Shown here one piece after another: positions 50,767-53,274 of a stretch of 64,000 bases of DNA. The stretch lies in assembly GCA_036405135.1 (NCBI GenBank), contig DASWYF010000031.1, forward strand, positions 1 through 64,000. Direction: 5' to 3'. Within the stretch, counting starts at the first letter, position 1. The number at the start of each line of letters is the position of its first letter. Position numbers and translations under genes: made by a program. This DNA comes from Verrucomicrobiia bacterium. GTDB taxonomy: Bacteria; Verrucomicrobiota; Verrucomicrobiia; Limisphaerales; JAEYXS01. The notes below the pieces were generated by a model, which saw nothing but the letters and a program-made list of their open reading frames with translations, did no database searches and was not told the origin of the DNA.

Positions 50767-51228
50767 TTACCCGGACTTTTTCTTCGACTTCCCTTGATGA
50801 TGCAGCAAGCTTTCCAGCACTTCATCCACCATGCTCATGTGATCTTTCTGATCTTCGAACTGGTGTTTCAAGTCTACCAGATAGCGCGTGAGATTGTTTA
50901 GCCTCCGCGCCAGTGTTTCAGCGACGATGATCGTTACTTCTGGATGTGCATCCAGAAACTGGCGTGCATTCTCGGCCTCCAAGAACTTGCAATCTGTCAG
51001 GCACTTGACGGTGGCCATGTGCGGCTGATGGAGCAGGATGGACATCTCGCCAAAGATGGACCCAGGTTCAGACACACGGCTTACCTGCACATCGCCTTTG
51101 CATATCTCCACCTTACCCTCTATGAGGATATAGAGGTGGCCCGTGCTCTGGCCTTCGTGCAAAACCTCATCGCCTGTCTTATAGGATACCTGCGGCAGTG
51201 CCTGGCAAGATTCCAGCATATGGCTCAT
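50767..51228 (-). CDS. Cyclic-nucleotide-binding-fold protein
   Basis: The 153-residue protein is a single cNMP-type beta-roll (KTGDEVLHEGQSTGHLYILI, then GSIFGEMSILLHQPHMATVK) followed by helices and a lysine-rich tail (GKSKKKSG). The phosphate-binding cassette keeps FGE, but the Arg that normally contacts the cyclic phosphate is replaced by His (QPHMATVK). Binding of cAMP or cGMP is therefore doubtful. There is no DNA-binding domain, so it is not a CRP-type regulator. It converges on the phosphoesterase gene with seven bases between stops. Confidence 0.85.
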   Translation of the reverse strand: MSHMLESCQALPQVSYKTGDEVLHEGQSTGHLYILIEGKVEICKGDVQVSRVSEPGSIFGEMSILLHQPHMATVKCLTDCKFLEAENARQFLDAHPEVTIIVAETLARRLNNLTRYLVDLKHQFEDQKDHMSMVDEVLESLLHHQGKSKKKSG

Positions 51229-51363: not shown

Positions 51364-52218
51364 TCAGAACCGCCACACCAGATCCACCGTCACGCGGTCT
51401 TTGAAGATGTCATTGCTCGGCGCAAAGCCACGCTCGTAAGCGAATCCCAAATCCACGTTCTCGAGAACCCGCGAACGGAAACCCACTCCCCACGCAGCTT
51501 GCGTGCGACCACCGGCATTCGTGCTGCCGAAGTTGATCAGATCGAAGCCCTCGGAATTGAAGGGCAATTGGTTACCTTCGGTGAGCGTAGTCACAGCATT
51601 GATGGTGGTGAATGGGATGAACCATCTACAGGTGAAGTAATCCGCCATCAGGCTGTAACGCACATTGGCTGTCTCTTTGTCCATGTCGATCGGGATGCGT
51701 GCTCCGAGATTACCGGTCAGGTGGAACTTGTCCCACCCCTTGATGGCCGAGACAAACAGGTTGAACTCACCAGACGCATTCCCTTGGAACACATCTTGAT
51801 TGCCGGAGGGCAGTTCAAAGGTCAGGCCTGGTGTGATGACCGTTTGCTGCTCGTCATTCTTATAAACGGCATACTTCACACCGAAGCCGATGTCCGCCCA
51901 GCCATTCTGCGCAGGACCGACCTCAGGGTTGAACTCGATGAAGCCGTCCTTAGTGGCGATGATGGCCAGCCGGTCATTCACGGCGTAGCGCAATTGCACG
52001 GCGTATACACGCACATCCACGTCAGTCCCGAGGAATGCATTATCTAGACGGTGGTAGGCGAAGATCGGGCGAACCTCACTTTGAATCAAAGGTGATTCAA
52101 AGAAAATGGGATTCGTCACCGGCGCGATCGCCTGTGCGGTCCAGTCCTCTGCGTGCACAGTTGTTCCTAGAATCAAACCTGCTGCAGCAGCCATTAATTT
52201 CAGTGATGTTTGTTTCAT
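51364..52218 (-). CDS. Predicted outer-membrane beta-barrel protein
   Basis: The 284-residue protein has a signal peptide (MKQTSLKLMAAAAGLILGTT, cleaved near HAED). It then shows alternating amphipathic strands (VYAVQLRYAVNDRLAIIA, DIGFGVKYAVYKN, VITPGLTFELPSGN) and ends in VDLVWRF, the C-terminal aromatic typical of barrels. It resembles small transporter or phenol-degradation-type barrels, but no specific family is recognised. It is divergent from the truncated hemoglobin operon, sharing the 157-base region that holds the NsrR-like box. It has its own strong terminator. Confidence 0.75.
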   Translation of the reverse strand: MKQTSLKLMAAAAGLILGTTVHAEDWTAQAIAPVTNPIFFESPLIQSEVRPIFAYHRLDNAFLGTDVDVRVYAVQLRYAVNDRLAIIATKDGFIEFNPEVGPAQNGWADIGFGVKYAVYKNDEQQTVITPGLTFELPSGNQDVFQGNASGEFNLFVSAIKGWDKFHLTGNLGARIPIDMDKETANVRYSLMADYFTCRWFIPFTTINAVTTLTEGNQLPFNSEGFDLINFGSTNAGGRTQAAWGVGFRSRVLENVDLGFAYERGFAPSNDIFKDRVTVDLVWRF

Positions 52219-52345
52219 AAATCAACAAACTTCACTTATACTCCTAGAGATCCGTTCTCTACCCTCCGCTTGTCGCTTCCCTGCTTTCTCTTGGGACAAA
52301 ATAGGATGGCTCTCACGCCAAAATGGGTCAGCGAAAATGTTTGAA

Positions 52346-52368
52346 TAGATGCTTTTAAAATGCATCTA
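52346..52368. promoter_or_regulatory. NsrR-type operator upstream of the truncated hemoglobin operon
   Basis: A 23-base near-perfect palindrome has half-sites TAGATGCTTTT and AAATGCATCTA around a central A; 10 of 11 base pairs are symmetric. It matches the known NsrR 11-1-11 pattern (AAGATGCATTT-n-AAATGCATCTT) at 19 of 22 positions. It ends seven bases before ATG 52376, so a bound repressor would cover the transcription or translation start. The regulator is presumably the NsrR-like protein encoded in the same operon. Confidence 0.85.
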
Positions 52369-52375
52369 TATTGAT

Positions 52376-52840
52376 ATGAACGTCAGTTTGCTGGAACGCA
52401 TGGGTGGACGACCGGTTCTCCTGAACCTGTTACGCCATTTCTATGCCGATGTCCGTCAACACGTACTGATCGGCCCTATCTTCACCGCACATATCACAGA
52501 TTGGCCGGCGCATCTGGAGAAGATTGCGGATTTTTGGAGTACCATCGCCGGTGGTCCGCCCGCTTACAGCGGGCCCATGGGGGCCAAACACATGCCTTTA
52601 GAGCTAAAGGAAGAACACTTTCAGGCATGGCTGGGCCTGTGGGAACATAATTGCAAAGTCTGGCTGGCTGCCGATTGCGCAGCGGAAATGATTCAATTTG
52701 CCCGGAGCATAGCCCTGCGTCTGCGCTTGATCAGCGGTGTCACCATCCCCGCAGACAGCCTTGGTGCCAGCCTGACTTTCGGTACGAGGCCGTATGGACA
52801 GAAGCCTTCCGTTAGGCTTCAATCCGGCCCGACATCATGA
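52376..52840 (+). CDS. Group III truncated hemoglobin
   Basis: The 154-residue globin has the truncated-hemoglobin start SLLERMGGRPVLLNLLRHFY and the group III block HMPLELKEEHFQAWLGLWEH, with the proximal His in EEHF and the conserved Trp. Group III globins bind O2 and NO; several serve in NO or nitrite responses. ATG 52376 (MNVSLLER) is chosen; an earlier in-frame ATG at 52349 lies inside the operator. No Shine-Dalgarno is seen, so a very short leader is possible. It overlaps the nsrR gene as ATGA. Confidence 0.92.
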   Translation: MNVSLLERMGGRPVLLNLLRHFYADVRQHVLIGPIFTAHITDWPAHLEKIADFWSTIAGGPPAYSGPMGAKHMPLELKEEHFQAWLGLWEHNCKVWLAADCAAEMIQFARSIALRLRLISGVTIPADSLGASLTFGTRPYGQKPSVRLQSGPTS

Positions 52841-53274
52841 ATCTGACCTTATTCTCTGATTACTCGCTTCGCATTCTCATGTATGCAGCTCTCAATGGTG
52901 GCAAGCAGTTCTCGGTGGATGACGTGTCGAACGCCTACAAGCTCTCGCGCCATCATGTGGCCAAGGCGGTGAACTTCCTTTCGCAGGAAGGTTACCTGGC
53001 CGCCAAGCGTGGTCGCGGGGGTGGGATTCTGCTGGGCAAAGCACCTTCGGAAATACGCATCGGCCAGTTGCTGCGCCGTAGCGAAGCAGGAACTCCGTTC
53101 ATCGAGTGTTTCGATGTGGCCACGAATACATGTCCGCTCATCAAAGGCTGCATGCTGAAGGGGGCTCTGTTCGAAGCGTGGAATGCGTTCTTCGATACGC
53201 TGGATAAATACACGCTCGCCGATTTCGTAAAACGACCCGAGCGCCTGCAACAGGCGTTGGCGATCACTACATGA
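52837..53274 (+). CDS. nsrR: NsrR-like Rrf2-family nitric-oxide-sensing repressor
   Basis: The 145-residue Rrf2 regulator has the winged helix-turn-helix (LSRHHVAKAVNFLSQEGYLA, then KRGRGGGILL) and the NsrR cysteine cluster CFDVATNTC...CPLIKGC, that is C-x7-C-x5-C. This cluster holds an iron-sulfur cluster that reacts with NO in known NsrR proteins, releasing the operator. The order ECF...NTCPLIKGCMLKGAL is typical of NsrR, not IscR. It is coupled to the globin gene (4-base overlap) and to the heme protein gene (4-base overlap). Autoregulation through the box at 52346-52368 is likely. Confidence 0.92.
   Translation: MNLTLFSDYSLRILMYAALNGGKQFSVDDVSNAYKLSRHHVAKAVNFLSQEGYLAAKRGRGGGILLGKAPSEIRIGQLLRRSEAGTPFIECFDVATNTCPLIKGCMLKGALFEAWNAFFDTLDKYTLADFVKRPERLQQALAITT

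Follow-up and report, generated by a model that had tools for sequence, protein, structure and literature searches.

Results

Organization of the locus

The window (the whole 64-kb stretch of DNA that was analysed) contains, on its forward strand, genes for a group III truncated haemoglobin, an Rrf2 regulator and a cytochrome-like protein, with a barrel-like gene diverging from them and a 23-bp imperfect palindrome, hereafter the box, in between (Table 1). The three forward genes follow one another without a gap, each start overlapping the preceding stop as ATGA at both the globin/nsrR and the nsrR/cytochrome junctions. The source genome (G000; 5.8 Mb in 52 contigs, 97.8% complete) belongs to the Verrucomicrobiota, as had been guessed from the letters alone. 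Among solved structures the globin is closest to 2ig3 (E 4.9e-9), which is a group III truncated haemoglobin; 2bkm and 1ux8 rank behind it. The globin ATG follows the end of the box after seven bases, the spacing given in the earlier note.

Table 1. Features at and around the globin-nsrR-cytochrome locus (window coordinates).
Feature	Position	Strand	Basis
Divergent barrel-like gene	51364..52218	-	of 20 loci read, only those of G000 and G002 have a box nearby
Possible -35 element, TTGAAT	52341..52346	+	putative; same letters in congener G002
NsrR-type operator (predicted), imperfect 23-bp palindrome, 11-1-11	52346..52368		scans; same place in congener G002
Possible -10 element, TATATT	52367..52372	+	putative; overlaps box end; TATTAT in G002
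Group III truncated haemoglobin gene	52376..52840	+	Pfam Bac_globin PF01152, 33.6 bits, cut-off 21; 2ig3
nsrR, Rrf2 regulator with Asp8 and Cys91/Cys99/Cys105	52837..53274	+	Pfam; ligands; identity to E. coli NsrR
Cytochrome-like protein, one-haem (CxxCH), secreted-looking, 439 aa	53271..54590	+	invariant haem motif; structure model

The two putative promoter elements are separated by a spacer of 20 bp, and a sigma-70 scan lists neither of them. Since the -10-like element ends three bases before the globin ATG, the globin mRNA could possibly be leaderless.

The palindrome and its uniqueness in the genome

The box reads TAGATGCTTTTAAAATGCATCTA, and 10 of its 11 arm pairs are complementary. As a yardstick of 22 specified positions we used AAGATGCATTTNAAATGCATCTT, the enterobacterial NsrR consensus. 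The box departs from it at three positions, so that the near-consensus agreement of 19 of 22 claimed in the earlier note holds; a match with three mismatches occurs only once in the 64 kb, and none of 100 dinucleotide shuffles yielded one. Compared by eye, the box also agrees with the published NsrR consensus, gATGyAT-(N5)-ATrCATc (PMC1274295), in 13 of 14 letters.

The genome-wide scan that the earlier note had proposed, when run on G000, left the box as the sole strong site. No other site matched the core pattern perfectly; the next-best site (contig C13, two mismatches) lay inside a 567-aa open frame, scored -6.5 bits and was discarded. With a matrix built from 29 boxes, all of other genera, the box scored 19.7 bits and ranked top of the window, the runner-up having 5.0 bits, and 3 Mb of random Markov sequence contained no site as good. 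A looser pattern returned two further sites in G000 with one mismatch each, on contigs C35 and C48, which score 9.1 and 9.5 bits, compared with 19.7 for the box, and were rejected; long open frames enclose the C35 site, and neither has a counterpart in the congener G002 when scanned with the same looser pattern. The weak C48 site (126815-126837, L122) opens a small c-type-cytochrome-like open frame.

G000 yielded neither a NorB cytochrome-c-like domain nor an ScdA_N protein, and it has two Bac_globin genes besides the boxed one. The boxed globin is thus the only NO-type gene tied to NsrR there, and the NsrR regulon of this genome appears to be a single operon, globin-nsrR-cytochrome.

Identity of the regulator

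The product of the second gene has an Rrf2 winged-helix domain (PF02082, 97 bits against a cut-off of 30). Its best solved relative is the Streptomyces coelicolor NsrR, and it shares 41% identity with E. coli NsrR over 144 columns. Asp8, Cys91, Cys99 and Cys105, which make up the set of cluster ligands typical of NsrR, are invariant in 24 of 24 aligned orthologues (the alignment covered 24 of the 51 nsrR sequences of the order). The narrow NsrR equivalog model, NCBIfam NF008240, gave 109.6 bits, below its cut-off of 182, so the regulator is not filed under that model. The RirA model NF008886 (PRK11920) gave about 114 bits (114.2-114.5), below its cut-off of 193. Because both curated models were missed, the RirA model with a slightly higher score than the NsrR model, the assignment to NsrR rests on residue 8, the operator and the context.

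These scores raise another reading, in which the regulator is a RirA-like iron sensor that carries a labile cluster, binds the box and responds to iron. RirA has no protein fourth cluster ligand. It forms a sister clade of NsrR (PMC10510648). RirA proteins, however, have a conserved Asn8 whose replacement by Asp abolishes the iron response (PMC10510648), whereas the regulator carries Asp8, like every aligned orthologue. The operator, which is of the E. coli NsrR type, and the NO-type neighbours of the orthologues described below also speak against RirA, and we regard an iron sensor as very unlikely. The name NsrR is used in what follows.

The same operon in relatives

In the congener G002 the globin, nsrR and cytochrome genes, plus the barrel gene, are arranged as in G000. 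Its box, TAGATGCATTTGTGGTGCATCTA, stands 8 bp before the globin and departs from the window's box at position 8 and in the centre and nowhere else. In the structure of S. coelicolor NsrR with DNA the central 7 bp have no base-specific contacts (PMC9338935). The same three genes occur in G127 (locus L075), where a degenerate box (16/22, 7.6 bits) lies five bases before the globin. Absence of the palindrome before orthologous operons, which the earlier note had named as evidence against its proposal, was therefore not what we found: the box is kept in G002 and degenerate in G127, the latter being a weak case. Another member of the genus, G001, has neither an nsrR orthologue nor a box.

Predicted NsrR boxes across the order

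A search of the source genome's order (E 1e-15 or better) found nsrR orthologues in 49 of 320 genomes, at 51 places, and the DNA of all 51 loci, the window included, was examined. Boxes were scored with a 22-letter pattern that was loosened after the first relatives had been inspected; on this scale the E. coli hmp and ytfE sites reach 19/22 and 22/22. A box of at least 17/22 was present within 200 bp upstream at 32 of 50 nsrR loci (L116, with no upstream DNA, was excluded), where Markov copies predict 0.12 of 50, so the palindrome does recur before orthologous nsrR operons. Upstream of other Rrf2 genes, namely the 23 matches of the order that had loci, the best score was 16, and hence none of the 23 has a box.

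The dyad TGTA-N7-TACA, counted without a motif, occurs in 11 of 45 dereplicated upstream regions and in at most 4 in each of 30 random sets. Left and right half-sites also co-vary, the observed match being reached by none of 2,000 reshuffles of the halves; the boxes had been picked by score, but the excess is greatest at positions 3/21, which that score barely constrains. The box stands most often, namely at 12 loci, 64 or 65 bp ahead of nsrR.

These results bear on the reading that some other dimeric regulator uses the box, or that the box is an AT-rich palindrome that arose by chance, with nsrR merely nearby. Palindromes of similar size do serve other regulators, and binding by NsrR is here a prediction. 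However, the box accompanies nsrR in many families, the 23 other Rrf2 genes have no such box, and the shuffles and the matrix scan against random Markov sequence exclude a chance origin, leaving this reading highly improbable.

Seven nsrR orthologues of family f7 (L085, L086, L089, L090, L092, L095 and L097) have no box in the 200 bp upstream. The same loci have no NO-type neighbour and lie near a gene whose product begins with MILGITLGDVTGIGPEVALRAV or a similar sequence and is presumably PdxA-like; these orthologues have possibly been repurposed. At four other loci (L080, L081, L126 and L129) ATG is changed to AAG symmetrically in both half-sites (AAGTAT...ATACTT).

NO-type neighbours of nsrR

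We counted as NO-type genes those for truncated and other globins, Ric-like ScdA_N-hemerythrin proteins, hemerythrins and NO reductase. A gene of this set lies within 1.5 kb of nsrR at 30 of the 51 loci of the order and at none of the 23 control Rrf2 loci; the query proteins had been chosen from neighbours already seen, and were checked by Pfam, including NO reductase and ScdA_N-hemerythrin. A box of at least 17 and an NO-type gene occur together at 25 of 51 loci. In 12 loci of the order a truncated globin is divergent from nsrR, mostly with a YHS-like stretch. At L043, L044, L076-L084 and L087 this divergent globin is secreted-looking, the YHS-like stretch mostly precedes it, and the box usually lies between it and nsrR. 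At L105 (917-3612) nsrR is followed by genes for a cytochrome c with two haems and a protein of the COX1 family, which we read as a putative NorC-NorB pair, with a box 64 bp before nsrR.

The cytochrome-like and barrel genes

The third product of the operon has no Pfam or NCBIfam match; C151, C154 and H155 are invariant in 22 aligned relatives. Its structure model is confident (pLDDT 86.8, pTM 0.87). Foldseek found no PDB match for the model at E 0.001 or better, and the best VIA-align hit, with a Z of 6.0, is to unrelated proteins, a value that means little, and no new fold is claimed. The family is found in 161 of the 320 genomes of the order, with three copies in G000, and its members mostly lie apart from nsrR and have no box. 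We considered the cytochrome as a general member of the regulon and rejected this: among 30 loci read, a score of at least 16 was seen only at L203, L204, L215 and L229, all of which adjoin nsrR. In this operon the cytochrome is best read as a co-transcribed passenger or a recruited helper.

The earlier note had suggested that the divergent barrel gene may share control with the globin. In an extended form, added to the main reading and not an alternative to it, the box would be a two-way operator that also governs the barrel gene, and barrel, cytochrome and globin would form one envelope module. G002 keeps the barrel gene on the other side of its box, homologues of barrel and cytochrome directly adjoin in G043 (contig C63, 5791-7899), and the 12 divergent globins of the order share a gap with nsrR, all of which are consistent with such a module. 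Against this, 127 bp separate the barrel start from the box, the barrel-proximal stretch is poorly conserved between G000 and G002, and the barrel family, present in 82 of 320 genomes of the order, showed no box nearby in 18 of the 20 loci read, each in a different genome from G000 and G002. Shared control is thus not supported, and we consider the two-way operator unlikely. Downstream of the barrel gene, on the same strand (50767-51228, -), is a gene for a small stand-alone cyclic-nucleotide-binding domain protein, and G002 has a similar one after its barrel gene.

Boxes beyond the order

Among named loci with 200 bp of upstream DNA, 41 of 79 have a box of at least 17, about one being expected (L128, with too little upstream DNA, was excluded from the 79). 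Their titles include Planctomycetota, Sumerlaeota, Hydrogenedentota, Bacillota and Pseudomonadota, and the usual caution over genome bins applies. In Verrucomicrobiota outside the order, a box lay within 250 bp at 3 of 15 genes of NsrR type (Asp8 and three Cys), the 15, found in addition to the window's own, coming from 30 loci read, that one among them. The 30 were drawn from the hits of a profile search (95 of 387); as its hits weaker than about 1e-30 include other Rrf2 types, this figure should not be read as the number of NsrR genes.

Five loci named Verrucomicrobia (L124, L125, L127, L130 and L133) have a box like AAnATGCAC-N5-GTGCAAGTT about 50 bp before nsrR; this altered half-site may reflect changed recognition.

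The strong conservation of NsrR recognition across phyla that the earlier note had drawn from this one box therefore stands in part. The 41 of 79 named loci, in several phyla, support it, and the 3 of 15 outside the order and the seven f7 orthologues without a box show that it is not uniform; the ATGyAT-type half-site code spans several phyla and is widely shared, not universal. The idea is not new either: conservation of the code across phyla was proposed for Bacillus and Streptomyces already in 2005, and NsrR with its operator in more than one phylum has been in print since then (PMC1274295).

Discussion

We propose that the product of the second gene, NsrR, has the box before its own operon as its operator and that NO releases repression of globin-nsrR-cytochrome, a reading to which we give a probability of about 86%. 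It is based on the box and its conservation, on how the genes are ordered, on the ligand residues and on the NO-type genes that accompany the orthologues; from these we infer repression, NO as the signal, the position of the promoter and the reaction of the globin. In the proposed cycle, the holo-NsrR dimer would hold one [4Fe-4S] cluster per subunit, with three cysteines and Asp8 of the partner as ligands, and would sit on the box, overlapping the globin promoter and keeping the operon off. NsrR would repress its own operon, and thus limit its own synthesis. NO would nitrosylate the cluster, upon which NsrR would leave the DNA; the truncated haemoglobin (and the cytochrome) would then be made and NO removed. 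With NO gone, the cluster would be rebuilt and repression would return.

A wider interpretation, rather doubtful at present, is that Verrucomicrobiota have an NsrR regulon spanning a whole order, in which the enterobacterial operator code was kept while the targets were exchanged (group III truncated globins, YHS-globins, Ric-like proteins, NO reductases). In the present genome a one-haem cytochrome from an unclassified family would have joined this regulon as a new NO-handling protein of the envelope. We found no earlier description of NsrR operators in Verrucomicrobiota in the literature, and so far as that search reaches, both the NsrR regulon of this phylum and the globin-nsrR-cytochrome operon are new. 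They add an order of Verrucomicrobiota to the range of a well-studied NO switch. In G000 the system has one site and one operon, with operator, regulator and target within about 1 kb, where they can be tested together. The boxes and regulators of the whole order, altered half-sites included, offer material for matching residues of NsrR to the bases that they read, and an unclassified cytochrome family becomes tied to NO in a few genomes.

Several known systems resemble this one. On plasmid pPZ02 of Paracoccus zhejiangensis, as here, an Rrf2 regulator adjoins an annotated group III truncated hemoglobin, there together with hemerythrin and NnrS genes, but the layout is divergent and the box weaker (18/22); we know of no experiment on that cluster. 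In Legionella, glbN-lpg2536 is a predicted NsrR operon in which, likewise, a haem globin other than Hmp is the sole predicted NsrR target (PMC1274295). It differs in that the partner is a hypothetical ferredoxin reductase, that nsrR is not named as part of the operon, and that the phylum is another (PMC1274295). The S. coelicolor NsrR (PDB 5n07, 7b0c), the closest solved relative, shares Asp8, the three cysteines and a tiny regulon, whose targets, however, are hmpA1, hmpA2 and nsrR (PMC9338935). Finally, the NsrR regulon of enterobacteria and Shewanella (hmp, ytfE, hcp-hcr) has in common with the present one an Rrf2 protein with the same ligand residues, a 23-bp operator and an NO-detoxification target; that target is there a flavohaemoglobin and here a group III truncated haemoglobin, and what sets the present system apart is a regulator inside the operon and one strong genomic site.
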